Of a DNA stretch of 33,838 bases, positions 18,910 to 32,313 are shown piece after piece; within the stretch, counting starts at the first letter, position 1; the number at the start of each line of letters is the position of its first letter. Where the stretch lies: positions 1 to 33,838 of the IMG/VR virus record IMGVR_UViG_3300042564_000688; one strand, given 5' to 3'. The notes beneath the pieces were generated by a model. That model saw only the letters and a program-made list of their open reading frames with translations. It made no database searches and was not told where the DNA came from. The stretch is from a virus. The position numbers and the translations under genes are program-made.

Positions 18910-19322
18910 TAATTTGTAACATCTTCAAGAAGAGTTATCTTGCCTTGGGCAACCGTCCAAACAAGGGTATCTTGTGGAAGACGTAACTCAATATCAAAAA
19001 TATCATCTGTTCTTAACTGTGCGGTTTGGGCTGCAGTTAGGTTAATCTTAAACTCTCCGTCTTCATCATCTTCATCTTGTGCAGGATTAACTGTAAAAAG
19101 TATTGTTGCGGTGTCCGTAATTATTTGAGGATCAACTATTGTGGTTGGTCTTTTAAATTCTGCCTCTATTGTCCAATCAGGAATATTTAAAGGCTGCTGC
19201 GTATCATCTGTTAGGTAGACCATAAAGGATGCTGTATCTCCTTTTACAATAGTCCAATTAACAAATGGTGGTGCTTCACCAATGTCGTATGTAGATGCGC
19301 CTTGACCTCTATAAGTTGCCAT
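18909..19322 (-). CDS. Baseplate-upper-protein-like beta sandwich (RGDT family, paralog 1)
   Basis: 137 residues from ATG 19322, which overlaps the previous stop as TAATG; a longer GTG-started version (19352) would lie inside that gene and is unlikely. After a short lead (MATYRGQGASTYDIGEAPPF) comes NWTIVKGDTASFMVYLTDDT, the mark of small baseplate beta-sandwich proteins such as the N-terminal domain of BppU. The same (R/K)GDT..F/L pattern occurs in the genes at 31191-31544 and 32408-32824. The middle has an acidic run (NPAQDEDDEDGEFKINLT) and the end is ITLLEDVTN, like the DVT/DVS ends of its paralogs. It is probably a fibre-holding element at the tail tip; this is family-level inference. 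Confidence 0.82.
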   Translation of the reverse strand: MATYRGQGASTYDIGEAPPFVNWTIVKGDTASFMVYLTDDTQQPLNIPDWTIEAEFKRPTTIVDPQIITDTATILFTVNPAQDEDDEDGEFKINLTAAQTAQLRTDDIFDIELRLPQDTLVWTVAQGKITLLEDVTN

Positions 19323-19849
19323 TATGCTAAACCTGCTTTCATTGATCCCCACGTTCCATTGCCTTTTGGCTGTCCAACTACAATTATTCCAGTTGATGCA
19401 TTTGACTTAGCAACAACTGCTACCGCCCCTGATCCACCAGCAGGAATTGTATCTGTAAGTCCTCCACCATTTGCAACGTATAGGATTTCTCCAGCGGTAT
19501 ATGAAGAAGTATCAATATTTTCAAATATACCAGAAACAATTATTACTCCATCTGACCCGTTAGTAATTGCTGCCTGTGTTATTCCTATCATTGGGAAAGT
19601 TGCTAAATCATCTGAGTCACATTTTGCAATTGTTGGTTTTGTTGAGTACCCTGAAATATATACAGGAGTTCCTTTTGCAATTGTTGAGCCTGTTGCATTT
19701 CTAACTTCAAGTGAAATAAAAGGAAGACCAACATTTGAAATAACATCTTCTATCCGCTCAGCAAGTGATTGAATGTCTCCATGGACATTTACAGGGTCAG
19801 TTAAAACGGGATAAGGAAGATCATAAGTAGTAGTTGCGCCAGTAGCCAT
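19322..19849 (-). CDS. Tail-associated beta-rich protein
   Basis: 175 residues starting MATGATTTYDLPYPVLTDPV, followed by an HGDIQSLAERIEDVIS helix typical of phage fibre attachment segments. From residue 45 it is a beta-rich domain with regular Gly turns (ASTIAKGTPVYISG-like: TIAKGTPVYISGYSTKPTIA, FPMIGITQAAITNGSDGVII, TAGEILYVANGGGLTDTIPA), a layout seen in many virion proteins of DUF2190-like build and in fibre heads. It starts a three-gene coupled operon. Its TGGTATAAT promoter lies 10 bases before the ATG without a Shine-Dalgarno. Exact function is unknown. Confidence 0.8.
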   Translation of the reverse strand: MATGATTTYDLPYPVLTDPVNVHGDIQSLAERIEDVISNVGLPFISLEVRNATGSTIAKGTPVYISGYSTKPTIAKCDSDDLATFPMIGITQAAITNGSDGVIIVSGIFENIDTSSYTAGEILYVANGGGLTDTIPAGGSGAVAVVAKSNASTGIIVVGQPKGNGTWGSMKAGLA

Positions 19850-20556: not shown

Positions 20557-20592
20557 ACCCCCTTGGAGAAATCCTTGGGGGTTTTTATTTTA
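20557..20592. terminator. Strong terminator between convergent endolysin and tail genes
   Basis: ACCCCC / GGGGGT (20557-20562 and 20577-20582) with an inner GGA/TCC helix capped by GAAA. On the plus strand the U-rich tail TTTTTATTTTAT follows. On the minus strand the tail is TATTTTATTA. It ends the endolysin mRNA and probably also the opposing adhesin/chaperone transcript. Confidence 0.9.
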
Positions 20593-20603
20593 TATTAAAT
20601 GGT

Positions 20604-20972
20604 TTAATTGATATCTACCCATGAGGTAGTTTCTTCGTCCCATGTATAAATTATATAATTTGATTCATCTGGTATTGGAGGGTCAACTGGTGGATTCCAA
20701 GTACAGGTTGCTTCATCTAGTAACCAAGATGGGTAAGGTTTTGGTGAGATAAAAGCATCTCTAATCGCATCATATGACATTCCAATAGCGGCATATTGTT
20801 TACGAAAGTTGTTATTATATGAGGTTTGTTTCCAATTGGTATACCCGCCAGACCAGTTTTCTAGCCACACAAGTCCTGAAGCCTCTTCATTTAAAGGATC
20901 TAATTCTAAGTTATTAATTACAATAATATCAATAACAATATTATTTTCATCTAATTTTGCAAAGTGTGCCAT
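20604..20972 (-). CDS. Putative adhesin-assembly chaperone, copy E (IVxNN subtype)
   Basis: 122 residues from ATG 20972, which overlaps the adhesin stop as TAATG; an upstream extension to 21002 would run inside the adhesin gene. It starts MAHFAKLDENNIVIDIIVIN and contains the family core WKQTSYNNNFRKQYAAIGMS, YD.IRDAFISPKPYPSWLL, DEATCTWNPP and the ending YTWDEETTSWVDIN. Four complete paralogs lie in this window, each directly behind a Gly-rich adhesin. Their constancy beside variable adhesins suggests a dedicated folding or attachment factor, as for tail-fibre assembly proteins. This is inference, and the family may instead be a structural cap. It pairs with an adhesin ending SGSITF. A bidirectional terminator follows. 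Confidence 0.85.
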   Translation of the reverse strand: MAHFAKLDENNIVIDIIVINNLELDPLNEEASGLVWLENWSGGYTNWKQTSYNNNFRKQYAAIGMSYDAIRDAFISPKPYPSWLLDEATCTWNPPVDPPIPDESNYIIYTWDEETTSWVDIN

Positions 20973-22417
20973 TAGAAAGTTATACTCCCGCTTCCAGTCC
21001 ATGTATATGTTCTATATCCACCACTAACAGATACGCTTGGGCTTCCAGTTGTTGCTACTGGTGCATTAAGATTGCTTGAATAACGAATGACTACTATTCC
21101 GCTATGACCACTGCCACCAGGGCCATATGTGCCCCACGGATTTACTTGGCTTGACCCACCGCCACCGCCGCCGTAGTATGTAGCGTTTCCACCAGGTCCA
21201 CCATTATGACCAGATCCAGCACCACCACCACCAGAGCCACCAGGTGCTGGTGATCCGTAGTTTGTCCAACCAGTACCGCCACCACCACCTGCATAAGTTA
21301 CAGATGAACCAGTTATTGAACTAGCCCTACCTGCGCCGCCGTAAGCCTCAGTTGAAGCAAAGGAGCCATCACAATTATTAGTAATTCCGCCTTGCCCACC
21401 TGCTCCACCGCCGCCAGACCCGCCGTAATAACTACACGCTCCAAATTGATTTTGTTTTCCACCATCATTTCCTTGCCCAGCAATTCCATTTCCGCCGTAA
21501 GACCCACCTCCACCAGAGCCACCGTTTCCACCAGTATCGCTGTAACCGCCATAGCCGCCGCCGCTGCAGGAGATTGAAGAGAATGAAGATCCAGCGCCGC
21601 TATTTCCGTTTGCACTACCACCTGCACCGCCTGCTCCACCGCCACCCACTCCTACTGAATAAACAACGCCAGTACTTACTCCTAGAGTTCCTTCTAACAT
21701 TCCGCCGCCACCGCCACCGCCCATGGTGCCGCCGCCGCTGGTGGGACTTAGTGCGCCGCCGCCGCCGCCAGCAACTACTAGGTACTCAACAGAAGAAACT
21801 GTAAAGACAGATGTAACAGAGTTAGAAGCACTGCTTGCAGCAGATGCACCATTTGCATTAGTTGCAGTGACTGTGTAGGTACGAGAACCACCAGTAAGTT
21901 CAGTTACTGTGATAGGGCTGGATGCTCCAGTATTAGAACGTCCAGAAGATGAAGTTGCAGTATAGCCAGTGATAGCAGAGCCACCAGTAGCAGCAGATGC
22001 AGTAAAGGGAACTGATACAACTCCAGATGTACCACCAGAGGCAGTGCCAATAGTTGGAGCAGAAGGGACAGTGGTTGCAGTTATAGAAGAAGAAGCGCTT
22101 GAAGCAGGACTAGTTGCAGATGTATTTGTTCCAGTAACAGTAAAAGTATAAGAAGTGGCAGATTGAAGACCTGTTACAGTCAAGGGTGATCCAGCACCAG
22201 AGGCTGTAAATGATCCAGGAGAAGATGTTGCTGTGAAAGATGTAGAGGTTCCGCCTGTAGGAGATGCCGTAAATGCAACGGTAGCAGAACCATTATTATA
22301 AGCCCTAGAAGTACCTACATTTGTAGCGGCACCAATAGTAGGTGCATCAGGTACATCAGGAATTGCAGTACCACTCTTAGTTATACCAGATGCATTTGCT
22401 CTTTTAATGTTGGCCAT
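20972..22417 (-). CDS. Glycine-rich FN3 adhesin, copy E
   Basis: 481 residues. After MANIKRANASGITKSGTAIP come two fibronectin-III domains (about 25-118 and 119-205; the first with NVGTSRAYNNGSATVAFTAS, the second with SGRSNTGASSPITVTELTGG). Then SSVEYLVVAGGGGG opens a region of about 215 residues dominated by Gly runs (about 215-430). The end is HSGIVVIRYSS and a conserved tail GGYRTYTWTGSGSITF. The Gly-rich part resembles polyglycine-II adhesins such as phage S16 gp38, which bind host surface proteins. The family is inferred from composition. The ATG lies 6 bases after TATAAT without a Shine-Dalgarno. It carries Cys in the Gly-rich part (SSISCSGG, GACSYYGG, NNCDG). Confidence 0.87.
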   Translation of the reverse strand: MANIKRANASGITKSGTAIPDVPDAPTIGAATNVGTSRAYNNGSATVAFTASPTGGTSTSFTATSSPGSFTASGAGSPLTVTGLQSATSYTFTVTGTNTSATSPASSASSSITATTVPSAPTIGTASGGTSGVVSVPFTASAATGGSAITGYTATSSSGRSNTGASSPITVTELTGGSRTYTVTATNANGASAASSASNSVTSVFTVSSVEYLVVAGGGGGALSPTSGGGTMGGGGGGGMLEGTLGVSTGVVYSVGVGGGGAGGAGGSANGNSGAGSSFSSISCSGGGYGGYSDTGGNGGSGGGGSYGGNGIAGQGNDGGKQNQFGACSYYGGSGGGGAGGQGGITNNCDGSFASTEAYGGAGRASSITGSSVTYAGGGGGTGWTNYGSPAPGGSGGGGAGSGHNGGPGGNATYYGGGGGGSSQVNPWGTYGPGGSGHSGIVVIRYSSNLNAPVATTGSPSVSVSGGYRTYTWTGSGSITF

Positions 22418-22423
22418 GTAAGT

Positions 22424-22429
22424 ATTATA
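22424..22429 (-). promoter_or_regulatory. TATAAT with leaderless spacing, adhesin E
   Basis: TATAAT ends 6 bases before ATG 22417, with no Shine-Dalgarno. The same layout precedes adhesins D and C, as AGTATTATA on the plus strand. Confidence 0.6.
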
Positions 22430-22447
22430 CCTTATCTTCTGTTAAAA

Positions 22448-22795
22448 TTATACCCAAGAAATTGTTGTTTCATCCCAAGTGTAGTCTTTAGGATCTGTTT
22501 CATCAAATATTGGATAATCAATTGGTGGTTCCCAATTGCAAGTATCTTCATTTAATAACCAAGACTCAAAAGGTTTTGGTGGAATAAAAGCATCTCTGCC
22601 TTCATCGTATTTATAGCCAATACCTGCATAGTTCTTGCGGATATTGTTGTTGTAACTTGTACGTTTACAGGTTTGACCTCTAAAGTTTCCATACCAAGTT
22701 TCTGTATCTAAGCCTTCAATGGTTTCTGTTTCGTCAATACCAGCAATAACTTCTGTAACAATGTTGTTGCTATCTAAGAATGCGTAATATGCCAT
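22448..22795 (-). CDS. Putative adhesin-assembly chaperone, copy D (WYGNFRGQ subtype)
   Basis: 115 residues from ATG 22795, inside the TAATG overlap with the adhesin D stop. It starts MAYYAFLDSNNIVTEVIAGI and differs from copies B and E in its first half: DETETIEGLDTETWYGNFRG replaces the IVVNN region. The shared core follows (RTSYNNNIRKNYAGIGYKYD, RDAFIPPKPFESWLLNEDTC, YTWDETTISWV). It has two Cys. Copy C has the same first half, and both C and D stand behind adhesins ending VSW(A/S). That pairing is the main reason to think the N-terminal half reads the adhesin C terminus. No signal peptide or membrane helix. Confidence 0.84.
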   Translation of the reverse strand: MAYYAFLDSNNIVTEVIAGIDETETIEGLDTETWYGNFRGQTCKRTSYNNNIRKNYAGIGYKYDEGRDAFIPPKPFESWLLNEDTCNWEPPIDYPIFDETDPKDYTWDETTISWV

Positions 22796-23979
22796 TATGC
22801 CCAACTCACATTTCCAGTACCAGCAGTAATAGTTGATACTTTAAATCCACCACTTGGTGCTGCTGTTGTACCTGTTAAACCAGCACCAATTGTAATTGTT
22901 TTATTGTCAGGATATTTAAGAATAACAATACCCGAACCGCCAGTACCACCATTGCCACCACATTTTGTGCCACCGCCTCCACCGCCAGTATTTGCAGTAG
23001 CGCCATAGCCAGAATGTCCGTTATTACGGCCTCCACCGCCACCTCCTGCGCCGCCACCACCAGGAGATCCTGTTTCGGCTTCGTAACTACATCCATTTTG
23101 ACCTGCACCTCCAGTACCGCCACCACCACCACCATAAGTAACTGATACCCCTGTAATAGAAACTGCTACACCTGAACCACCAGCACCGCCATTATCAACA
23201 CTTCCATTATTACCAACGGCACCAGCACCGCCGCCGCCGCCAGCGCCAGCACCCGAAGGACCAAACACATTACTGTTATTTGAACCCGAACCACCTCGGA
23301 AGCCTTGACCAGAAGTACCTGCTGGTTGAAGATTAGAGTTATTACAGGAACCTCCGCCGCCTGAGCCTCCAGAAGTATTAACTGTACCACCACCCAAAGA
23401 TGTAACAGTAGAAAATACAGAATTAGAACCGTTAGTCGAAGCAGGACCACCTGCACCAACAGTTACTGTATAACCAACACCACCTGTAACAGGTAATGCG
23501 GTTTCTAAACTTCCACCGCCGCCAGTTGCAGTAACGGTTGAACGCAGACCACCTGCTCCACCACCGCCACCACCTGCTGGAGCCATTCCTCCACTACCTC
23601 CGCCTGCACCACCAGCAACAACTAAATAATTAATAGTAAGTGCAGGAGTTATTGCATTAGATGCAGCAGATTCTGGACCAACAGCAGTTGAGTTTGTTCC
23701 TTTAACTTTAAATGTATAGGCAGTTCCATCTGTTAATCCAGCAACTGTAATAGGAGAGGCACCTGTTCCTGTAAATCCACCAGGAGTAGAGGTTGCTGTA
23801 AATGTTGTTACTGTGCCACCAGTTGCTGCTGCTGTATATGCAACTGAAACTGAATTACCAGTTGCTAAATCTGTGACGGCACCAATAGTAGGAGCATCTG
23901 GAACATCAGGAATAGGAGTAATGCCTGACATAACGTTCCTTAATGAAAATTTTTCATTGCTTGCTCTACGTACTGACAT
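22795..23979 (-). CDS. Glycine-rich FN3 adhesin, copy D
   Basis: 394 residues, the shortest of the five. After MSVRRASNEKFSLRNVMSGI comes a single fibronectin-III domain (about 24-112, VPDAPTIGAVTDLATG to SNAITPAL). INYLVVAGGAGGGSGG then opens the Gly-rich domain (about 115-345) with Cys-containing loops (GGSCNNSN, QNGCSYEAE, TKCGG). The end is SGIVILKYPDNKTITIGAGL and GGFKVSTITAGTGNVSWA, a different C-terminal class from copies A, B and E. A tail-tip adhesin role is inferred. The TATAAT at 23991-23986 is 6 bases before the ATG and there is no Shine-Dalgarno, suggesting a leaderless mRNA that also carries its chaperone gene. Confidence 0.87.
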   Translation of the reverse strand: MSVRRASNEKFSLRNVMSGITPIPDVPDAPTIGAVTDLATGNSVSVAYTAAATGGTVTTFTATSTPGGFTGTGASPITVAGLTDGTAYTFKVKGTNSTAVGPESAASNAITPALTINYLVVAGGAGGGSGGMAPAGGGGGGAGGLRSTVTATGGGGSLETALPVTGGVGYTVTVGAGGPASTNGSNSVFSTVTSLGGGTVNTSGGSGGGGSCNNSNLQPAGTSGQGFRGGSGSNNSNVFGPSGAGAGGGGGAGAVGNNGSVDNGGAGGSGVAVSITGVSVTYGGGGGGTGGAGQNGCSYEAETGSPGGGGAGGGGGGRNNGHSGYGATANTGGGGGGTKCGGNGGTGGSGIVILKYPDNKTITIGAGLTGTTAAPSGGFKVSTITAGTGNVSWA

Positions 23980-23985
23980 ACTAGT

Positions 23986-23991
23986 ATTATA
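23986..23991 (-). promoter_or_regulatory. TATAAT with leaderless spacing, adhesin D
   Basis: TATAAT ends 6 bases before ATG 23979, separated by the palindrome ACTAGT. No ribosome-binding site is seen. Confidence 0.6.
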
Positions 23992-23997
23992 CTCTGT

Positions 23998-24348
23998 TTA
24001 TTCCGTTGGAATTTCTACCCAAGAGGTAGTTACTTCATTCCAGATATATAGTTTGTCATCTGTGGGTCTAGGTGTAGGTGCTTCCCACAAACAAGTTTCT
24101 TCATTTAATAGCCATGAATCAAAAGGTTTTCCTGGTATAAAAGCATCACGAGTTTCATCGTAAGTAAATCCGATACTAGCGTAGTTTTTACGTATGTTTC
24201 CATTGTAAGAAGTACGAACACACTTCTGTCCCCTGAAATTTCCATACCAAACTTCAGGAGTTAATCCATCAATCAGTTCAGTCTCGTCAAGTCCAGTAAT
24301 AACTTCAGTTACTCTATTATGATCGTCTAAAAGTGCGTAATGTGCCAT
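23998..24348 (-). CDS. Putative adhesin-assembly chaperone, copy C (WYGNFRGQ subtype)
   Basis: 116 residues from ATG 24348 (TAATG overlap with adhesin C). It begins MAHYALLDDHNRVTEVITGL, then DETELIDGLTPEVWYGNFRG, like copy D. The core RTSYNGNIRKNYASIGFTYD, RDAFIPGKPFDSWLLNEETC and the ending IWNEVTTSWVEIPTE follow; the last five residues match copy B (WVEIPTE). The mix of a D-like front and B-like end suggests recombination among paralogs. Function is inferred from its constant place behind the adhesins. Confidence 0.84.
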   Translation of the reverse strand: MAHYALLDDHNRVTEVITGLDETELIDGLTPEVWYGNFRGQKCVRTSYNGNIRKNYASIGFTYDETRDAFIPGKPFDSWLLNEETCLWEAPTPRPTDDKLYIWNEVTTSWVEIPTE

Positions 24349-25769
24349 TATGACCAACTCACAGTTCCACTACCAGAAGTGATAGTTGTTGTTTTAAATC
24401 CACCAGCAGGACCAGATGTTGAACCAGAAACCCCACTAAGTGAGATTGTTTTAGAGTCTGGATATTTAAGAATTACGATGCCAGAACCTCCATTACCGCC
24501 ATTTGCTGAACCGCCTGAATAACCAACACCACCACCTCCACCGCCAGTATTAGCACTACCAGCAGGTCCAGTTGTTGAAGAAGATCCTCCATTAGCACCG
24601 CCGCCTGTACCACCAGTACCAGGACCAGAAGCATTTTGATTACCACCACCACCGCCACCTGCGTAAGTAACACCGTTAATTGATGAAGCAGCACCGTTAC
24701 CACCAGAACCTGCAGGGAATTGTGGAGCCAGTCCTCCAGCATCACCACCTGCAGCACTTTTACCGCCACCACCAGCGCCTGCATATCTTGAAGAAAGAGT
24801 ATTAGTTCCACCATTACTTCCTTGGCCACCAACTCCAGCACCGCCACCACGAGAACCGCCTGCACCGCCACCACCAGCACCGCCGCCAGAACCGCCGCCG
24901 CCGCCGCCTGCGTTATCATTGCCTCCAGCACCTCCGCCGTATGCAGTTATAGAATAAAAAACGCTATTTGAGCCTGTTGATGAAGCACCGCCACCACCAC
25001 CAACCGTAACGGTATGGTTAGTAGAAGCAGGAACCTGACTTACTGAACCATCTAACATTCCACCTGCGCCGCCGCCACCGCCAGTATTGTTAGAACCGCC
25101 TCCACCTCCTCCAGCAACAACTGTATAACTAACTGTAAATCCAAAAGTAGAAGTTAAAGAATTAGATGCAGAAGATGCAGCAGATGTACCGTTTGCGTTA
25201 GTTGCAGTAACTGTATAAGTATAAGTACCACTAGTAATTTCAGTTACTGTAATAGGGCTGGATGCTCCAGTATTAGAACGTCCAGAAGATGATGTTGCAG
25301 TAAAAGTTGTTATAGCAGAACCACCTGTTCCGCCTGCGGTAAATGGTACAGATACAACACCACCTTCTCCGCCGCCAGATGCAGTTCCAATAGTAGGGGC
25401 TTGAGGAACAGTTGTTGCTGTTATAGAAGAAGATGCAGCAGATTCAATACCTACTACGCTTGTAGATGTAACTCCTGTTGCTTTAAATGTATAAGATGTT
25501 GCACTTTGCAATCCCGTCACGGTAAGTGGAGAAGCACCACTAGCAGTATATGAACCTGGTGTACTAATAACATTATATGTAGCAGGAGTTCCACCTGTTG
25601 CAACCGCTGTTATTGTAACAGTAGCAGAACCATTGTTATATGCACGGCTAGTGCCTACGTTAACAGCGCTAACTGTTGGGGCATCAGGAAAGTCCATGAT
25701 CTCGGATACTGCTGTTAGACCATCTGGAGTTCCTTCAATGCGTTCATCGTTTGCTCTACGTATTGACAT
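24348..25769 (-). CDS. Glycine-rich FN3 adhesin, copy C
   Basis: 473 residues. The start MSIRRANDERIEGTPDGLTA is close to copy D. Two fibronectin-III domains follow (about 27-118 and 119-208). The second shares a 41-base identical DNA stretch with adhesin E around ASSPITVTE. The Gly-rich domain (about 215-430) opens with SYTVVAGGGGGGSNNTGGGG and lacks Cys, unlike D and E. The C terminus is SGIVILKYPDSKTISLSGVS and GGFKTTTITSGSGTVSWS, the same class as copy D. TATAAT (25781-25776) is 6 bases before the ATG. It is probably a receptor-binding tip protein; alternatives are a capsid or tail decoration. Confidence 0.87.
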   Translation of the reverse strand: MSIRRANDERIEGTPDGLTAVSEIMDFPDAPTVSAVNVGTSRAYNNGSATVTITAVATGGTPATYNVISTPGSYTASGASPLTVTGLQSATSYTFKATGVTSTSVVGIESAASSSITATTVPQAPTIGTASGGGEGGVVSVPFTAGGTGGSAITTFTATSSSGRSNTGASSPITVTEITSGTYTYTVTATNANGTSAASSASNSLTSTFGFTVSYTVVAGGGGGGSNNTGGGGGAGGMLDGSVSQVPASTNHTVTVGGGGGASSTGSNSVFYSITAYGGGAGGNDNAGGGGGGSGGGAGGGGAGGSRGGGAGVGGQGSNGGTNTLSSRYAGAGGGGKSAAGGDAGGLAPQFPAGSGGNGAASSINGVTYAGGGGGGNQNASGPGTGGTGGGANGGSSSTTGPAGSANTGGGGGGVGYSGGSANGGNGGSGIVILKYPDSKTISLSGVSGSTSGPAGGFKTTTITSGSGTVSWS

Positions 25770-25775
25770 ATTAGT

Positions 25776-25781
25776 ATTATA
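25776..25781 (-). promoter_or_regulatory. TATAAT with leaderless spacing, adhesin C
   Basis: TATAAT ends 6 bases before ATG 25769, with the spacer ACTAAT nearly the same as that of adhesin D (ACTAGT). No Shine-Dalgarno. Confidence 0.6.
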
Positions 25782-25787
25782 TCTTAT

Positions 25788-26165
25788 TTATTCCGTTGGA
25801 ATTTCTACCCAGGAAATTGTTGCTTCATCCCAGGTATAATACTTAGGATCTGCTTCATCAAGTATTGGATAATCAACTGGTGGTTCCCATTTACAGGTTT
25901 CCTCATTTAGAATCCAAGATTCAAATGGTTTTGGTTCAATAAAAGCATCACGTTCTTGGTCATACAAATAATCAATTCCCGCATAGTTCTTACGCATGTT
26001 TCCATTATAGGAAGTCTGCGCCCAGCGACCACCAAATAGATTGAAACAAAAGTCAATGCCCTTTTGCTCAGACTCTTGATTATTTTCATCTAGTATTTCA
26101 CTGTTATTGACTACAATAACTCTTAGTACTTTATTGTTGTCATCTAGTTCTGCAAAATGTGCCAT
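25788..26165 (-). CDS. Putative adhesin-assembly chaperone, copy B (IVxNN subtype)
   Basis: 125 residues starting MAHFAELDDNNKVLRVIVVN, then NSEILDENNQESEQKGIDFC and FNLFGGRWAQTSYNGNMRKN. The core RDAFIEPKPFESWILNEETC and the ending YTWDEATISWVEIPTE are shared by the family. It differs from copies C and D in the first half and agrees with copy E (NN.E, long acidic loop, WxQTSYN). It is the only copy with a separate Shine-Dalgarno (AAGGAG overlapping the adhesin B stop) rather than a TAATG overlap. Similar small genes are common beside fibres in aquatic phages and are mostly unannotated. A chaperone role is inferred. Confidence 0.85.
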   Translation of the reverse strand: MAHFAELDDNNKVLRVIVVNNSEILDENNQESEQKGIDFCFNLFGGRWAQTSYNGNMRKNYAGIDYLYDQERDAFIEPKPFESWILNEETCKWEPPVDYPILDEADPKYYTWDEATISWVEIPTE

Positions 26166-26178
26166 TTTTTATTTCTCC

Positions 26179-27792
26179 TTAGAATGTAATTGAGCCTGAG
26201 CCCGTAAATGTATAAACATAGTTTGAACCTGAAGTGTTAACTGCTGGTCCGCCAGTCGTTGAGTTTGCTGCTCGTGCTGCACTAATAATAACTACACCTG
26301 ATGAACCACTACCTGCTGCTGCGCCGTCATCACCACGCATAGAACCTCCGCCTGAACCAGTGTTGGCTACACCGCTAGTTGGTGTACCGCCTGCTGATGC
26401 GCCGTTTCCACCAAGGCCTGAACCACCTGAACCTGCAGCGCTATCGCCAGAGCCACCGCCTCCGCCTCCTGCAGAGGTTATTGAAGTACCTGAAATAGAA
26501 GTTCCCACTCCAGGACCACCAGTAGTTACGTTACCAGCACCACCTGCACCTCCACCACCAGATGAGTTTTGAACGTTGTAACCTGCTCCACCATTATTTT
26601 GTGGTGAACCAGAAACACCTCCTGTACCAGAAGTACCTGGACCAGAGAATCCGCCGTTACCTGCTCCACCAGTTAAACCAAGTGCACTTGATGCAGTTCC
26701 ATTTGCTTTAGTATTAGTACCTGTAGATCCTGCTCCACCACCACCTACTGTAATTGTGTATGTTGCAGGAGTTAGGTTAGTTGAACCTGAGTAATAACCA
26801 CCTGCACCTCCACCTGCTCCGTAACAGGCACCTGGGGTACCTTTACCACCAGAACCAGCACCACCAATTATAAAGTAAGAAACAGCAACAGTAAAGGCAG
26901 ATGTAACAGAGTTAGAAGCACTACTTGCAGCAGATGTACCATTAGTATTAGTTGCAGTAACTGTATAAGTGTAAGAACCAGCAGTAACCTCAGTTACTGT
27001 AATAGGAGAAGATGCTCCTGTATTAGTACGTCCTGAAGATGAAGTTGCAGTATACGAAGTAATAGCAGAACCACCTGTAGCACCAGCAGTAAACGGAACT
27101 GATACTACACCAGATGTACCACCAGTAGCAGTTCCAATAGTGGGAGCCTGTGGAACAGTGGTTGCTGTTGTAGATGCAGATGCAGCCGATGCAGTAGAAA
27201 CGCCATTACCATTTGTTGCAGTAACTGCATATGTGTATGCAGTTCCTGACTGCTGACCTGTTACAGTAAGTGGACTTGACGCACCAGTTGCTGTGTAAGA
27301 ACCAGGGGTACTAGTAACTGTATAACCAGTAATAGCAGAGCCACCATCAGCAGCAGAAGCCGTAAAAGCAACAGATGCAGATCCATTATTATATGCACGA
27401 CCAGAACCATTATTAGTAACTGCTCCAATGGTAGGTGCTTGTGCAGTGGTAGTTGCTGTAATAGAGTTAGATGAAGAAGACGCTGGCCCACTTCCTGTTG
27501 AATTAGTAGGCACTGCTGTAAAAGTGTAAGAAGTTCCAGTCTGTAATCCTGTTACTGTCACAGGAGATGCAGATGTAGCCGTAAATGAGCCTGGGTCACT
27601 TGTTACTACGTAAGAAGTTGGAGATCCACCTGTTGCACCTGCAGTTACAGTTATTGTTGCAGCACCATTGTTATAAGCACGAGAGGTACCTACGTTTGTT
27701 GCAGTACCAATAGTCGGGGTATCTGGAACGTCAGCAATAGGAGTAACACCTAACATGACGCTCTTGAGTGAAACCTTGTTAGTGATAGTCAT
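26179..27792 (-). CDS. Glycine-rich FN3 adhesin, copy B
   Basis: 537 residues, the longest of the set, with three fibronectin-III domains (about 22-118, 119-215 and 216-300). NVGTSRAYNNGAATITVTAG in the first and GSGRAYNNGSASVAFTAS in the second show they are duplicated units. VSYFIIGGAGSGGKGTPGAC then opens a Gly-rich domain (about 305-495) that is less Gly-dense than the others and richer in Ser/Thr. The end is SSGVVIISAARAANSTTGGP, then SNYVYTFTGSGSITF, the same terminal class as copies A and E. It has a Shine-Dalgarno (AGGGG, 8 bases) and follows a 109-residue gene. The extra FN3 unit probably lengthens the stalk. Confidence 0.87.
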   Translation of the reverse strand: MTITNKVSLKSVMLGVTPIADVPDTPTIGTATNVGTSRAYNNGAATITVTAGATGGSPTSYVVTSDPGSFTATSASPVTVTGLQTGTSYTFTAVPTNSTGSGPASSSSNSITATTTAQAPTIGAVTNNGSGRAYNNGSASVAFTASAADGGSAITGYTVTSTPGSYTATGASSPLTVTGQQSGTAYTYAVTATNGNGVSTASAASASTTATTVPQAPTIGTATGGTSGVVSVPFTAGATGGSAITSYTATSSSGRTNTGASSPITVTEVTAGSYTYTVTATNTNGTSAASSASNSVTSAFTVAVSYFIIGGAGSGGKGTPGACYGAGGGAGGYYSGSTNLTPATYTITVGGGGAGSTGTNTKANGTASSALGLTGGAGNGGFSGPGTSGTGGVSGSPQNNGGAGYNVQNSSGGGGAGGAGNVTTGGPGVGTSISGTSITSAGGGGGGSGDSAAGSGGSGLGGNGASAGGTPTSGVANTGSGGGSMRGDDGAAAGSGSSGVVIISAARAANSTTGGPAVNTSGSNYVYTFTGSGSITF

Positions 27793-27814
27793 TTAAATTA
27801 CCCCTAACTGGTTA

Positions 27815-28144
27815 TTAAGAAATTTCGCTACCGAATAATGAAAATGATAGGTTTGCTGTTGAAGCATATACACGTACGACATCTGTTGTCGCTAGTGTTA
27901 CACCAAGTGTTAACGCAGTTGTATCAGAAGCAGCAACTGTTGCACCGTAAACGATGTAGTGCTTTGCTTCTGCTGTCGCACCTGCTGGGCTTACCGCAAT
28001 GCGGTATGTAGCAGCAGAGGCTGCCTGGTTGCAGATGATGATCGTTGAGATCACAGCAGAGGTTGATGACGGAACTGTGTAAAGCGTAGTCAGCGTTGTT
28101 GCCGCTGGTGCTGCTTGAGCAATTGTCTTGTATGTTGTTGCCAT
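27815..28144 (-). CDS. Small virion protein of a family common beside phage fibres
   Basis: 109 residues starting MATTYKTIAQAAPAATTLTT, followed by LYTVPSSTSAVISTIIICNQ and ending STANLSFSLFGSEIS. The pattern (Q..PAATT.TTLYTVP..T.AVISTI, a YRIAVSPAGA strand, then a T.D.VRVYAST..LSF..FG.E end) is recalled from many cyanophage- and pelagiphage-like genomes, where it is uncharacterised; one small beta sandwich is likely. It lies between adhesins A and B in place of the chaperone that would be expected after A. It starts from AAGGAG 7 bases before the ATG and is preceded by a promoter-like region with a hairpin. Confidence 0.83.
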   Translation of the reverse strand: MATTYKTIAQAAPAATTLTTLYTVPSSTSAVISTIIICNQAASAATYRIAVSPAGATAEAKHYIVYGATVAASDTTALTLGVTLATTDVVRVYASTANLSFSLFGSEIS

Positions 28145-28165
28145 TTATATCTCCTTTTTATACAT

Positions 28166-28184
28166 ATAATGATTTTGTCATTAT
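28166..28184 (-). promoter_or_regulatory. Stem-loop in the leader of the 109-residue gene
   Basis: Perfect 7-bp repeat ATAATGA / TCATTAT with a 5-base loop. It lies 3-13 bases from the expected transcript start of the promoter at 28194-28212, another leader that seems to begin with a hairpin. The 12-base string TTTTGTCATTAT recurs at 28258-28269. Confidence 0.5.
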
Positions 28185-28193
28185 TGTAATGGT

Positions 28194-28212
28194 GCTATAC
28201 CAAATTGTACCA
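28194..28212 (-). promoter_or_regulatory. Tandem extended -10 elements ahead of the 109-residue gene
   Basis: On the minus strand TGGTACAAT (28212-28204) and TGGTATAGC (28202-28194) lie one after the other in the 190-base gap after adhesin A. The first matches the extended -10 better. They can restart transcription for the adhesin B to E array. Confidence 0.5.
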
Positions 28213-28296
28213 TATTTTTATATTAGTAGGTTGACTTATTCCCTTTTAATTTTTGAATTTTGTCATTATAGATATTTTTATTATGTATTTAATCGT

Positions 28297-28332
28297 TTAA
28301 TCAATTTCTACCCAAAAGGTAGTTTTTTTGCT
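28297..28332 (-). pseudogene. Remnant of a fifth chaperone gene behind adhesin A
   Basis: Eleven codons and a stop read SKKTTFWVEID on the minus strand, against ETTSWVDIN at the end of copy E and VTTSWVEIPTE in copy C. The DNA match ACTACCT..TGGGTAGA is clear. It continues about 25 bases past the stop (ATTAAAC-ATT-AATA) into the downstream flank of copy E, so this is a deletion scar of the whole gene rather than chance. It is in frame with adhesin A, which is closed by two TAG codons (28338-28333). Nothing upstream of codon 11 survives. Confidence 0.7.
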
Positions 28333-28335
28333 CTA

Positions 28336-29709
28336 CTAGAATGTTATACTTCCGCTTCCTGTCCAAGTGTAATTATGATACCCGCCGCTATTTGAATATG
28401 AAGCGCCAGATTGTGATGAAGCAGCAGTGAAAGTATTTGAATATCTAATGGCTACTATTCCTGAACCACCTGCACCTGCATCGCCTGCCTGATATGCAGC
28501 ACCGCCACCGCCACCTCCAGTATTAACAGTTCCTGCAGTGCCTACTGAAGAAGCATTAGAACCTGCACCCCCACCTCCAGAACCACCAGCAGCGCCGCTT
28601 TGGTTAGAGTTACCACCACCGCCACCACCTCCGCCAAAGGTTCCTGCAAATGTACTTGTGCCAGCACCGCCAATACCGCTAACAAGGCCAGATGCACCAG
28701 CGCCACCAGCGCCACCACCTCCGCCAGCCCAAATACCAGAACCAACGGTACCGTTTGATCCATTTCCACCTGAGTTGCCTTGACCACTTGTTCCTGTAGC
28801 ACCAGTTCCACTAGGAGTATAACCACCGCCACCAGAACCACCTGTAGAAGCAGCCCCACCACCAGTACCTCCTGCACCACCACCTGTTGCAGTAATAGAG
28901 CCAAAGACAGAGTTCTGTCCGTTAGTAGAACTACCAGATCCAGAACCGCCACCACCAATAGTTACATTAACGGTTCCACTTACACCTACTGATCCAGTTA
29001 GAACTCCACCTGCACCTGCGCCGCCGCCTGCGCCTCCATTTTGACGGCCACCACCGCCGCCGCCTGCAACTACTACGTATTCTACAGAAGAAGGGGCAGT
29101 GGCTGCTGGAGTTACGCTATTGCTTGCACTAGATGCAGATGAAACACCGTTAACATTTGTAGCAGTTACTGTAAATGTATAAGCAGTTCCATTTGATAAT
29201 CCTGAAACTGTGATAGGACTTGCACCGCTGCCTGTTGCTCCTCCAGGAGATGCAGTAGCAATAAATGAAGAAACTGCAGCACCACCTGTTGCCCCCGCTG
29301 TGTAAGTAACAGTTGCAGAAGAGTTAGCACCCGTAGCAGTTCCAATTGTTGGTGCTTGTGGAACTGTAGTTGCAGTAATACTATTTGAAGCCGATGAAGC
29401 AATAGATGAACCTGAAGCATTATTTGCTGTAACCGTAAATGTATAAGAAATACTTGATTGCAAACCAGTTACTGTAATAGGTGAGGAAGCAGAACTGCCT
29501 GTGAAACCACCAGGACTAGAGGTTGCTGTAAATGAAGTTGCTTCTGGTCCACTTGCAGCAGCAGTAAAGGTAACCGTTGCAGATCCATTATTGTAGGCAC
29601 GAGAAGTGCCAACATTAGTAGCAGTTCCAATTGTTGGGGCTTGTGGAACTAATGATCCACCGCCAAATCCAAATGCACGAGACCCAACTATACTAATGAG
29701 TGGACTCAT
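28336..29709 (-). CDS. Glycine-rich FN3 adhesin, copy A (lacks a complete chaperone)
   Basis: 457 residues. The start MSPLISIVGSRAFGFGGGSL differs from the other four. Two fibronectin-III domains follow (about 20-112 and 113-203; VGTSRAYNNGSATVTFTAAA in the first). SSVEYVVVAGGGGGG opens the Gly-rich region (about 205-415). The C terminus is GSGIVAIRYSN, then GGYHNYTWTGSGSITF, nearly the same as copy E. The ATG follows directly on the TAA of the 299-residue fibre gene, with no Shine-Dalgarno, so it is probably translated by coupling. Behind it lies only a scar of a chaperone gene, so it may be inactive, use the chaperone of copy E, or need none. Confidence 0.86.
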   Translation of the reverse strand: MSPLISIVGSRAFGFGGGSLVPQAPTIGTATNVGTSRAYNNGSATVTFTAAASGPEATSFTATSSPGGFTGSSASSPITVTGLQSSISYTFTVTANNASGSSIASSASNSITATTVPQAPTIGTATGANSSATVTYTAGATGGAAVSSFIATASPGGATGSGASPITVSGLSNGTAYTFTVTATNVNGVSSASSASNSVTPAATAPSSVEYVVVAGGGGGGRQNGGAGGGAGAGGVLTGSVGVSGTVNVTIGGGGSGSGSSTNGQNSVFGSITATGGGAGGTGGGAASTGGSGGGGYTPSGTGATGTSGQGNSGGNGSNGTVGSGIWAGGGGGAGGAGASGLVSGIGGAGTSTFAGTFGGGGGGGGNSNQSGAAGGSGGGGAGSNASSVGTAGTVNTGGGGGGAAYQAGDAGAGGSGIVAIRYSNTFTAASSQSGASYSNSGGYHNYTWTGSGSITF

Positions 29710-30609
29710 TTAAGCAAATTTCGTTTGGGCCTCAAGGACTGTAAAAGTCGCATTAGCAGTTTTAATGATTGTAACTGAATAAGAATCAATAGAACTTGCA
29801 TTGCCAGAAGTAATTGCTGTACCGCCTTGAATTTTTGGAGTAACTGCATTGCCATCTATTGTAATTGCTGTTGGGTAATAAGGAGTTGCACCATTGGTAT
29901 TCATAAATACTAAAGTAATAGAATTTCCAATTGCCATAAGTGAATTAAGGGTTGTTCCAGAATCGCCACGGAAGTTAAGAGTAAAGTTAGCAGATGCATT
30001 AGTTGTATAATAAAGAATAGACTGAGTAACAATATCAAAATTAACTGTTCCTGTTGCTGCAGTTGCAGATATTGTCATAAACTCTTGTGGAGACTTTAAG
30101 GTTTTATTAGTTATAGTTTCTGTTCCCGCAAGAGTTGCAAAGTCTGCATCAGTAACTGCTGTATTAAATTGTGCAATTGTTCCTGATACCGTGTTTGAAC
30201 CAAGAGCAACTGTCTTATTTGTTAAAGTCACAGAATTTGAAAGACCTACAGATGGGGCTGCCCATTTAACTCCAAGAGTTTGTGCTGAATCGGCTGTTAA
30301 AACAAAGTCATTGCTTCCAACTGCTAGATTATCAACTGCATCATTTGCAGAGCCTATAATTAAGTCGCCTTTAGCATCAATAATAGATTTGGCTACACTA
30401 TCACCTCCACTAAGGTTTGTAACCTGTGTTTGAAGATAGTTTAATGTATGGGCAATTGATGGTTCTATAAGATTTGCGGTATTTGCATTTGCTGTATTGT
30501 ATGATGAAGATCCGTAGTGATATAGTCTAAACGCTGCTTGAATGTCAGCATTGTCTGCGTACCCAGGTATTTGTGTGGGATAAATTGCGCCAATAGATTC
30601 AGATGCCAT
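29710..30609 (-). CDS. Tail fibre protein with shared repeat modules
   Basis: 299 residues starting MASESIGAIYPTQIPGYADN, with a helical segment to about 70 (IAHTLNYLQTQVTNLSGGDS). IIDAKGDLIIGSANDAVDNL and SNDFVLTADSAQTLGVKWAA are the same modules as in the 636-residue fibre. TLTNKTVALGSNTVSGTIAQ and FNTAVTDADFATLAGTETIT are nearly identical to units of the Mtd-like fibre. From about 180 it is a beta-rich distal domain (FDIVTQSILYYTTNASANFT, then GNSITLVFMNTNG). It is the first gene of the adhesin array and has TGATATAAT plus AAGGTGA. Role as a shaft or anchor for the following adhesins is possible but unproven. Confidence 0.86.
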   Translation of the reverse strand: MASESIGAIYPTQIPGYADNADIQAAFRLYHYGSSSYNTANANTANLIEPSIAHTLNYLQTQVTNLSGGDSVAKSIIDAKGDLIIGSANDAVDNLAVGSNDFVLTADSAQTLGVKWAAPSVGLSNSVTLTNKTVALGSNTVSGTIAQFNTAVTDADFATLAGTETITNKTLKSPQEFMTISATAATGTVNFDIVTQSILYYTTNASANFTLNFRGDSGTTLNSLMAIGNSITLVFMNTNGATPYYPTAITIDGNAVTPKIQGGTAITSGNASSIDSYSVTIIKTANATFTVLEAQTKFA

Positions 30610-30615
30610 GTCATT

Positions 30616-30635
30616 TCACCTTATTCATTATATCA
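30616..30635 (-). promoter_or_regulatory. Extended -10 promoter and Shine-Dalgarno of the 299-residue fibre
   Basis: TGATATAAT (30635-30627) overlaps the stop codon of the gene before it. AAGGTGA (30622-30616) lies 6 bases before ATG 30609. Confidence 0.65.
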
Positions 30636-31191
30636 CAACCGAAACAAATAAATGGACAGAGGATTCTGTTGCAAGGGGTGTCCAGACGCCATCGTACTTT
30701 GCTGCTTCAAGACTTATAACAAGGTTTGATCCAGATACTGCAATTGAAGAAATAGAACTTGCTAGGGGCTTTGAATTAATAATAGAATGTTGAACAGTAA
30801 AATTGTTTGCCCCTAAACCAGTAACTGATGTTATGTTTGTTATTGGAATAATTATCATTCCGCTTCCATAATCAGCATCTGATCCTGCTCCAAAAGTTAC
30901 AGTATGTATTTTTGAATATATTGCGGGAGCAATCTTTAAAACCTCTACCCAAGTATCTCCGCCAGGCTCTGAAACGTATTGGTATAAATATCCATAATCT
31001 GATCCAGGTGCAGAGTTAATATATAGGTCATTTAATATTTTGGTTGATATAGCAACCGAGTTTGGATTTCCAACACCGACAAAAACTTTGCTACCACGAG
31101 TTCCAGTTGGACCAATATCAACAAGAAGTTCAATTGTTTCTGGTCCAGATAAAACAGTTAGGTCATCATTAGACAATACTACATCTGGCAT
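30628..31191 (-). CDS. Tail-associated protein with a short Gly-X-Y-like start
   Basis: 187 residues starting MPDVVLSNDDLTVLSGPETI. Residues 21-45 (ELLVDIGPTGTRGSKVFVGV, then GNPNSV) form a strand and the short Gly-rich turn of many baseplate/fibre attachment proteins. The remainder is beta-rich (YGYLYQYVSEPGGDTWVEVL, then TVTFGAGSDADYGSGMIIIP), ending in a hydrophobic strand (VHLFVSVVI). Start and previous stop overlap as TAATG, so it is coupled to the RGDT-family gene ahead of it. It has no Cys or signal peptide. A fibre-base or tail-tip protein is the likely identity, without firm family evidence. Confidence 0.82.
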   Translation of the reverse strand: MPDVVLSNDDLTVLSGPETIELLVDIGPTGTRGSKVFVGVGNPNSVAISTKILNDLYINSAPGSDYGYLYQYVSEPGGDTWVEVLKIAPAIYSKIHTVTFGAGSDADYGSGMIIIPITNITSVTGLGANNFTVQHSIINSKPLASSISSIAVSGSNLVISLEAAKYDGVWTPLATESSVHLFVSVVI

Positions 31192-31569: not shown

Positions 31570-32313
31570 CTAACAGATTGAAATATAGATTCCTTTTAAT
31601 AGAATTGAACTTTCTAAATCTGTCCTTGCTTGAGGCTTTAGCCCATAACTTTTAATTTTTTGACTGTCTATATATACTGTTTGTAATACTGAAATATCGT
31701 AAGAATACTGATATTTAAGGTTTGCCACATAGGATGTTGGAGAGTTTTCATATTTTTCATTAAATGTTCTAAACCACAAATCCGTATAGTTTGAACTAGT
31801 CGTAATTGTAAAGTCGTATCTTATATCTGCCTTGGCCCCAATTTTTAAACCTTTAAAGTTAAACATGCCTACATCTGGTAACCATAAAGAGGGCAGACTT
31901 TTTGGAATATAGTCTTCAAGGTAAAAGGTTGGATCTGTATTAAAATTAATAGATACCCAACCATCATCGCCTCTTTCTGGTCCTAGGCTAGTTATTCTGT
32001 CTGAATTATTTTTGTAATAAGCCCAACCTGGATATTGTCCAGATGGTGAATCATAGCCCTCTCCGCCTTTACCTGACTCACCACGAGGTCCCTGCGGTCC
32101 TGCCCTACCCGTATCACCTTTTGGACCTTGCGGACCAGTCTCGCCCTTTTCTCCTGGATCACCTTTAAGTCCTCTTTCGCCTCTTTCGCCATTTAGTCCA
32201 GGAACAGGTATATACTCTTTTAAATTTGTAGGTTGTTGAGCAGCGGATTCTTGAATTGCTTGAGAAAACCCTTTTCTTTTAAGGGGTTGTGGGGAGTCCA
32301 TGCTTTTTGCCAT
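31570..32313 (-). CDS. Collagen-like tail protein
   Basis: 247 residues. Residues 39-86 are sixteen uninterrupted Gly-X-Y triplets (GERGERGLKGDPGEKGETGP continuing to GKGGEG), rich in Lys/Glu/Arg pairs that stabilise a collagen triple helix without hydroxyproline. A 38-residue basic start precedes them and a 160-residue C-terminal domain follows (GQYPGWAYYKNNSDRITSLG, then DDGWVSINFNTDPTFYLEDY, YDFTITTSSNYTDLWFRTFN). The protein should form a trimeric stalk with a beta-rich head. Phage collagen repeats are common in tail fibres. There is no Shine-Dalgarno; the ATG is 11 bases after the preceding small gene, and a TAAGAT lies 5 bases upstream. Confidence 0.88.
   Translation of the reverse strand: MAKSMDSPQPLKRKGFSQAIQESAAQQPTNLKEYIPVPGLNGERGERGLKGDPGEKGETGPQGPKGDTGRAGPQGPRGESGKGGEGYDSPSGQYPGWAYYKNNSDRITSLGPERGDDGWVSINFNTDPTFYLEDYIPKSLPSLWLPDVGMFNFKGLKIGAKADIRYDFTITTSSNYTDLWFRTFNEKYENSPTSYVANLKYQYSYDISVLQTVYIDSQKIKSYGLKPQARTDLESSILLKGIYISIC

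Follow-up and report, generated by a model that had tools for sequence, protein, structure and literature searches.

Across an array of five glycine-rich adhesin genes in a freshwater-type actinobacterial phage and more than 100 other phage loci compared with it, we find that the type of the adhesin's C-terminal tail is matched to the type of a small partner protein, a correspondence that is new here. To judge from sequence comparison, the inherited block is the adhesin tip tail together with the N-terminal half (N-half) of the partner, not the gene pair, and the partner C-half recombines separately. We consider it probable that the array is a variable receptor-binding locus in which the partners act as chaperones or transient caps for the adhesin tip and such blocks are exchanged.

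The window, i.e. the whole stretch of 33,838 nucleotides that was analyzed (IMG/VR record IMGVR_UViG_3300042564_000688), carries the array between conserved flank genes, with five co-oriented adhesin ORFs on the minus strand in the transcript order A5, A4, A3, A2, A1 (Table 1); the ORF list bears out the coordinates given in a preliminary description of this DNA. Each adhesin begins with a short anchor at the N-terminus, followed by 1 to 3 fibronectin type III (FN3) spacers, a polyglycine-rich domain and a C-terminal tail. The FN3 counts described earlier for A1 to A5 (2, 1, 2, 3, 2) are reproduced by an HMM made from the window's own segments and hence partly circular, and Pfam reports two FN3 stretches each in A4 and A5 and one each in A1, A2 and A3, with several sub-cut-off. 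The array adhesins contain the Gly-rich repeat domain that is a feature of polyglycine-rich phage adhesins, with Pfam Gly_rich_2 above cut-off in four of the five and slightly under in A2 (23.2 vs 24.3). Compared with the PDB, the A2 model (pLDDT 90) has as its top hit 9d93_Qb, the tail tip of mycobacteriophage Bxb1 (E 1.6e-3, prob 0.99, TM 0.40 by target).

Table 1. Features of the adhesin array and its surroundings, in transcript order.
Feature	Coordinates	Strand	Basis or remark
Upstream flank gene U, conserved	30628..31191	-	query for sister loci
Upstream flank gene, 299 aa, phrog_5906, conserved	29710..30609	-	abuts A5
Adhesin A5, 2 FN3 + Gly-rich domain, type-I tail (..YTWTGSGSITF)	28336..29709	-	first of array
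Scar of a deleted p1-like partner: its final ~9 codons plus post-stop sequence	28275..28328	-	reads ..TTFWVEID(stop)
phrog_1276 small protein, 109 aa	27815..28144	-	common at equivalent slot in relatives
Adhesin A4, 3 FN3 + Gly-rich, type-I tail	26179..27792	-	ORF, Pfam, FN3 HMM
Partner p4, type E (..EILDENNQESEQKGIDFC), phrog_7759	25788..26165	-	profile match
TATAAT, leaderless-type -10 box, 6 nt before A3 start, putative promoter	25776..25781	-	exact match
Adhesin A3, 2 FN3 + Gly-rich, type-II tail (..TITSGSGTVSWS)	24348..25769	-	ORF, Pfam, FN3 HMM
Partner p3, type W (..GLDETELIDGLTPEVWYGNFRGQKC)	23998..24348	-	TAATG overlap with A3
TATAAT, 6 nt before A2 start, putative promoter	23986..23991	-	exact match
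Adhesin A2, 1 FN3 + Gly-rich, type-II tail (..TITAGTGNVSWA)	22795..23979	-	ORF, Pfam, FN3 HMM, model
Partner p2, type W, N-half p3-like, C-half nearest p4	22448..22795	-	TAATG overlap with A2
TATAAT, 6 nt before A1 start, putative promoter	22424..22429	-	exact match
Adhesin A1, 2 FN3 + Gly-rich, type-I tail	20972..22417	-	ORF, Pfam, FN3 HMM
Partner p1, type E	20604..20972	-	TAATG overlap with A1
G+C-rich hairpin between A/T runs, possible terminator	20560..20581	.	between convergent p1 and lysozyme-like genes
Downstream flank gene D, conserved	19322..19849	-	query for sister loci

A1 to A4 are each followed by a paralogous gene of ~120 aa (p1 to p4), all assigned by profile (1e-38 to 1e-46) to phrog_7759, a family without known function, and A5 is followed by a 54-nt remnant instead. 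This scar matches the p1 3' end and post-stop sequence at 43 of 54 nt, which 0 of 1000 shuffles equalled. Four small paralogs and one scar had been described before, under a title that gave each adhesin its own partner; that wording is too strong, because A5 has just a partner remnant. The translational joining proposed for the pairs was likewise recovered, as a TAATG overlap in A1-p1, A2-p2 and A3-p3 and as a Shine-Dalgarno inside the stop at the A4-p4 junction, TTCTAAGGAGAAATAAAAAATG. Identity among the partners of the window is 32-69% in the N-half and 57-79% in the C-half; a variable N-half with a conserved C-half is a Tfa-type feature, and binding of the fibre by the N-half is predicted. 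The persistence of A5 without a partner counts against the chaperone or cap reading. An independent contig (L089) has the order A3-p3-A2-p2-A1-p1 identical to that of the window and a further locus (L009) contains M109-A4-p4, so that a large part of the array is genuine and not produced by assembly. At the same slot, relatives carry 0 to 5 adhesins (48 distinct loci, the window being at the top of the range), with one in L178 and L282 and none in others.

Among the adhesins that carry an exact TATAAT box the N6 spacing is identical in 7/7, and the equal spacing of the A1, A2 and A3 boxes suggests that these genes may be expressed separately. A sigma-70 promoter scan of the array gave fewer sites than shuffles, with solely TATAAT-N6-ATG standing out, and this motif no longer stands out when one mismatch is allowed. 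For gene D, TATAAT is present in 69 of 71 relatives. The total of a hairpin scan was no higher than in shuffles.

Partners of this family accompany Gly-rich genes well beyond the window. Directly downstream of a Gly-rich ORF, the position of a Tfa-type gene relative to its fibre, lie 132 of 165 distinct complete partners (60 joined by TAATG), and the 30 testable partners placed elsewhere all have such an ORF within 1.5 kb upstream; as a control, 56% of the other ORFs of those loci have one within 2.5 kb. By the preliminary description's own criterion, cassettes that do not occur as pairs in related genomes would have refuted it; the comparison did not refute it, as 162 of 162 testable distinct partners accompany a Gly-rich ORF, and on bacterial genome contigs one lies upstream of the partner in 20 of 20 testable cases. 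Some marine loci have a 2OG-Fe(II) oxygenase-like gene between adhesin and partner. Such loci are not instances of a partner without an adhesin, the Gly-rich ORF being found one or two genes further upstream, and an apparent natural adhesin-partner fusion in L117 proved to be out-of-frame ORF read-in. Other loci hold several same-type adhesins without their own partner and one partner common to them.

Matching was assessed between the last 45 residues of the adhesin and the first ~48 of the partner. Tail type I occurs with partner type E in 33 pairs and tail type II with partner type W in 63 (56 by pattern, 7 W by eye), with no I/W or II/E cross-pairs among these 33 + 63 typed pairs; an independent collection agrees in 9/9 pairs (6 + 3), none against. 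Lineage is controlled for by a test within single-genome arrays, where the true pairing ranks best in 9 of 10 (rank product 1.8e-5). Tail and partner N-half covary with a rho of 0.51 (bootstrap 0.39-0.62), compared with 0.16 in the adjacency control between the N-half and C-half of the same partner, and within type II alone the two values are 0.61 and 0.26. Since this covariation far exceeds that between the partner halves, the inherited block crosses the gene boundary. With a looser type classifier, two further pairings came up: a II/E pair in L117, where the adhesin is tail-less and was misclassed, and an I/D pair in L028. Tail-less adhesins occur with several partner types, which counts against the chaperone or cap reading. 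Within the window, A2 and A3 have type-II tails; A1, A4 and A5 all have type-I tails, and A5 could therefore be served by p1 or p4. The partner had been called dedicated to its adhesin, which is upheld as matching by tail type and not as a one-to-one relation.

The N-half of p2 is 69% identical to that of p3 and 32% to that of p4, and its C-half is 79% identical to p4 and 71% to p3. The second adhesin of L009 joins an A1 N-terminus to an A3-type tail and an A3-type partner N-half. Recombinants of this kind, together with the 0 to 5 adhesins per slot, support the earlier proposal of a reservoir of receptor-binding cassettes, in the form of a gene stock that varies in number and recombines. Of the pair as a cassette, the matching of partner to adhesin stands, but the gene pair as the unit does not, as the exchange block ends inside the partner gene. 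It seems, then, that gene boundaries do not delimit the module in which such receptor-binding genes are naturally inherited.

Partner genes resemble known fibre chaperones in arrangement and differ from them in fold. In the cyanophage Pam3 tail fibre gp24 and its chaperone gp25 (PDB 7YPX, PMC9608196), as in the array, a Gly-rich fibre has a small helper gene beside it, and gp25 likewise has a variable N-half and a conserved C-half; its variable N-domain grips the TNF-like and Gly-rich fibre tip (PMC9608196). However, Pam3 has a single pair, gp24 has a helical N-terminal shaft in place of FN3 units, and gp25 has an alpha-helical, Tfa-like C-domain whereas the partner C-half is beta and without homology found. 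The partner model (pLDDT 94; beta/alpha N-half, beta C-half) departs from the Tfa-type fold of N-terminal beta-sandwich and C-terminal helical trimerisation domain, the latter being absent from it, and compares with Pam3 gp25 at E 3.2 and TM 0.34. Beyond this fold comparison, homology to Tfa, DUF4376 or a PDB chain was sought and not found: Pfam gave no match to Tfa or DUF4376 in 102 partner-family members, and hhalign against Mu Tfa (nil, probability 0.5%) and a PDB profile search with the partner (nil) agree. That the partner has no sequence or fold match to a known chaperone counts against the chaperone reading.

The Mu G segment (S-U / S'-U', L322) also swaps alternative fibre ends along with their own chaperone, but with two sets switched by inversion through its own invertase, whereas here five co-oriented cassettes vary in number as well as sequence, with a block of inheritance whose end lies within the partner gene. 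Invertible cassettes of the Mu type do not fit five cassettes on one strand, and no invertase-like ORF was noticed, without dedicated search, in the window, a genome fragment. In the Alteromonas phages V22 (gp26/gp27) and A5 (gp8/gp9), fibre and downstream helper move as a module between phages, and the V22 helper is not in the final complex, a transient cap being proposed (PMC7289586, PMC10579305); these helpers belong to another family (DUF4376-containing, ~22 kDa) and occur as single pairs, in contrast to the phrog_7759 array. S16 gp38 and Bxb1 share with the adhesins a polyglycine-rich receptor-binding domain (receptor binding by the adhesins being predicted from family); they differ in FN3 spacers, and we found no array or phrog_7759 partner described for them in the literature consulted.

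By analogy with Pam3 gp24/gp25 and Mu S/U, the partner most likely chaperones or caps the tip in a manner specific to tail type. In this reading the array would be a hypervariable locus for receptor binding, grown to five adhesins in an actinobacterial phage; in each adhesin the polyglycine-rich domain would bind the receptor and the tail close the tip. Each partner would chaperone or transiently cap that tip, its variable N-half recognizing the tail, so that partner types match tail types, and its conserved C-half being common to all types. Cassettes may be gained, lost and recombined through sequence that is conserved in FN3 units and in partner C-halves, whereby Gly-tip, tail and partner N-half would move as one block, and A5, its partner lost, could probably use another of the same type.

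It is unlikely that the partner is instead a permanent distal virion tip protein that stays on the adhesin and aids receptor binding. Type matching fits a permanent complex equally well, partner expression appears TAATG-coupled to the adhesin, and Mu Tfa is retained on the fibre, with possible receptor contact (PMC10579305); yet virions of Pam3 lack gp25 (PMC9608196), conservation of the partner C-half from one type to another is not what a tip in contact with a receptor would show, and A5 does without a partner. We also regard as improbable that matching reflects physical linkage alone, i.e. a diverged block lacking homology for crossovers and no mutual dependence. The tail and N-half segments do adjoin, with breakpoints that seem to fall where FN3 units and partner C-halves are conserved, but the partner halves adjoin too and are nearly uncoupled (0.16 vs 0.51), the coupling is even stronger in type II, where homology exists, and partner starts are conserved enough to cross over, with 0 I/W or II/E among about 105 pairs. 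Action on a non-adhesin target (e.g. anti-defence or regulatory), with adhesin proximity a chance of operon order, is very improbable: the partner has no known homology and the oxygenase-like gene intervenes in some marine loci, but all testable partners lie near a Gly-rich ORF, in phages of many hosts and on bacterial contigs, and partner sequence tracks the adhesin tail.

Whatever the partner's role, all five adhesins might be displayed together on one virion for a wider host range rather than held as a reservoir. We think this possible, though somewhat less than an even prospect: the five ORFs are all intact and A1, A2 and A3 each have an equally spaced -10 box, but relatives get by on a single adhesin there (L178, L282) or on none, and the anchors, a matter of docking, vary from cassette to cassette.

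Under the chaperone or cap reading, phrog_7759, its function so far unknown, receives a likely function. Phages with this family have Synechococcus, Prochlorococcus, Pelagibacter, Roseobacter, Methylophilales and Actinobacteria as hosts, cultured examples being Pelagibacter phage Greip EXVC021P and Synechococcus phage Bellamy. The chances seem about balanced that phrog_7759 and its short relatives form a widespread, hitherto overlooked class of chaperones or caps for the tips of polyglycine-rich phage adhesins, in which tail and N-half follow a lock-and-key code, with service in trans and block exchange. If so, one chaperone type would serve in trans all adhesins of its tail type, phages could stock adhesin arrays with few chaperones, and tip, tail and chaperone N-half would be exchanged as a block ending inside the chaperone gene.

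The matching provides a sequence rule for helper-adhesin pairing that would aid the annotation of genes for host range, since Gly-rich adhesins easily escape BLAST; tblastn with one adhesin against phages gave no match, probably because low-complexity masking strips the Gly-rich part. The longest ORFs of three partners begin a few codons upstream of the true starts, which for p1 to p4 are 20972, 22795, 24348 and 26165.

Partners, the ~120-aa proteins (phrog_7759; p1 to p4 beside adhesins A1 to A4), are associated with Gly-rich adhesins: of the 165 distinct ones whose N-terminus is complete, 132 lie directly 3' of a Gly-rich ORF, 60 of them with a gap of 0 (TAATG). The 33/165 others, many of them 3' of a 2OG-Fe(II) oxygenase-like gene, were considered as counter-examples and rejected, since a Gly-rich ORF stood at most 1.5 kb upstream in 30/30 testable cases (those with enough upstream sequence), against a background of 56% of same-strand ORFs with a Gly-rich ORF within 2.5 kb. 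In independent bacterial genome contigs, 20/20 testable loci agree, the Gly-rich ORF being upstream of the partner. Many adhesins scored as unpaired are followed by a shorter protein of 60-110 aa like the partner N-half, by E-values from a 21-sequence set that are indicative only; such proteins follow tail-less adhesins in L174, L188, L217, L300, L311 and other loci. Marine-type loci (L037, L056, L067, L041 and others) have an ~85-aa gene, often with a 2OG-Fe(II) oxygenase-like gene, between adhesin and partner, and L014, L015 and L022 carry two different tandem partners after one adhesin, then more type-I adhesins without their own partner.

Adhesin tails and partner N-halves (the first ~48 residues) are matched in type. 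Among 125 distinct pairs we counted I/E in 33, II/W in 56 by pattern plus 7 missed by the pattern and read as W by eye, and tail-less adhesins with D in 9, E in 7 and W in 3; there were no I/W or II/E cross-pairs, and 10 pairs had tails outside the patterns. The patterns were written after inspecting the data and were checked out of sample, by eye, on the bacterial contigs, which gave I/E 6, II/W 3, tail-less/D 1 and none against; one of these contigs (L332) joins a type-I tail to a further partner class. Judged from other genomes, the real pairing scored highest in 9/10 multi-pair genomes (rank product 1.8e-5). Partnerless type I and II adhesins had a matching-class partner in the locus in 24/25 and 14/17 cases, a weak comparison in loci mostly found via the partner.

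Tail and partner types, and positioned features in the window
Feature	Positions	Description
Adhesin C-tail type I		ends ..WTGSGSITF
Adhesin C-tail type II		ends ..TITAGTGNVSWA
Tail-less adhesin		ends at ..IVIIRY
Partner N-half type E		..ELLDENGxESExKGIxFC
Partner N-half type W		..GIDETELIEGLxPExWYGNFRGQxC
Partner N-half type D		..DEGYQWLIDNLGGTW
109-aa phrog_1276 protein	27815-28144	inside array; many relatives also have it at this slot, some of them in two copies
TATAAT, A1	22424-22429	exact, 6 nt before start
TATAAT, A2	23986-23991	exact, 6 nt before start
TATAAT, A3	25776-25781	exact, 6 nt before start

The last 45 adhesin residues covaried with the partner N-half (rho 0.51, bootstrap 0.39-0.62), compared with 0.16 (0.07-0.27) between the halves of the same partner and 0.11 between adhesin N-terminus and partner N-half. 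Type II alone gave 0.61 for tail and N-half and 0.26 for partner halves; type I alone (33 pairs) had no graded tail/N-half signal (0.08). Finer segments fall into two blocks, tail plus partner N-half and partner C-half, bounded at a conserved TSYNGNIRKNYAG stretch. Linkage inside a diverged block offers a partial alternative account of the matching. Partner halves recombine: the N-half of p2 shares 69% identity with p3, a partner of its own type, and 32% with p4, but its C-half is nearer to p4 (79%) than to p3 (71%). The second adhesin of related locus L009 has a first FN3 unit 86-94% identical (DNA) to A1 and is A3-like beyond, with an A3-type tail and A3-type partner N-half (81-88%). Judged by identity, these recombinants show directly that the inherited block crosses the gene boundary and that partner halves recombine.

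The chaperone (gp25) of cyanophage Pam3 grips a TNF-like and Gly-rich tip through a variable N-domain, trimerises through a conserved C-domain and is absent from the virion (PMC9608196). This logic fits the partners, with a variable N-half matched to the adhesin tail and a conserved C-half. The N-half would be in physical contact with the tail, the partner is probably a chaperone or cap, A5 may be served by p1 or p4, and Gly-rich adhesins would bind receptor. The partner model (pLDDT 94.4; beta/alpha N-half, beta C-half) matches uncharacterised phage proteins only, and Pam3 gp25 is in its PDB list without significance (E 3.2). The A2 model (pLDDT 90), with an FN3 domain, Gly-rich region and C-terminal strands, has its best PDB match in the tail tip of mycobacteriophage Bxb1 (E 1.6e-3); polyglycine-rich domains are reported in Bxb1 (PMC13252515, PMC13243795).

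Cassette number varies among sister loci, metagenomic contigs fetched with conserved flanking genes U (30628-31191) and D (19322-19849). Across 48 distinct complete U-to-D loci, Gly-rich adhesins numbered 0 in 31, 1 in 11, 2 in 2, 3 in 1, 4 in 1 and 5 in 2, the window, with 4 partners, being one of the last two. L178 holds one adhesin-partner pair only, 3' of the same upstream gene as the window array; in L168, which shares 98% identity with the window in gene U, a different, unrelated FN3-only protein fills the slot, which by this comparison is a recent wholesale replacement. The variable number and the contents of L178 and L168 argue that the locus is a replaceable, putatively receptor-binding slot that is expanded in the window. 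Most of the array is reproduced independently in L089 (p3 100% identical) and L009 (p4 96% identical).

The preliminary description's account of five adhesins, their coordinates and FN3 numbers, TAATG joins and partner scar 3' of A5 was confirmed. Transcript order on the minus strand is A5, scar, 109-aa gene, A4-p4, A3-p3, A2-p2 and A1-p1, then a hairpin and a convergent lysozyme-like gene. TATAAT occurs 4 to 8 nt before ATG 15 times in the window (3.4 +/- 1.7 expected), some being TAATG gene overlaps. The gap is 6 nt in 7/7 lineage adhesins with an exact box, present at only 10% of adhesin starts; this spacing is where a leaderless transcript would begin. Gene D relatives have exact TATAAT in 69/71, mostly 9 to 10 nt before ATG, and gene D must start its own transcript. 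Boxes before A1-A3 and gene D suggest that internal cassettes may be transcribed separately.

The host is probably an actinobacterium, because the capsid protein is nearest Streptomyces phages (43%) and the class II ribonucleotide reductase nearest Mycobacterium phage Gaia and Actinomycetia phage DSL-LC01 (about 60%). The length of related contigs, up to 105 kb, shows that the window, a 33.8-kb virus record, is a genome fragment. A collagen-like Gly-X-Y tail-fibre protein is encoded upstream of the array (31570-32313).
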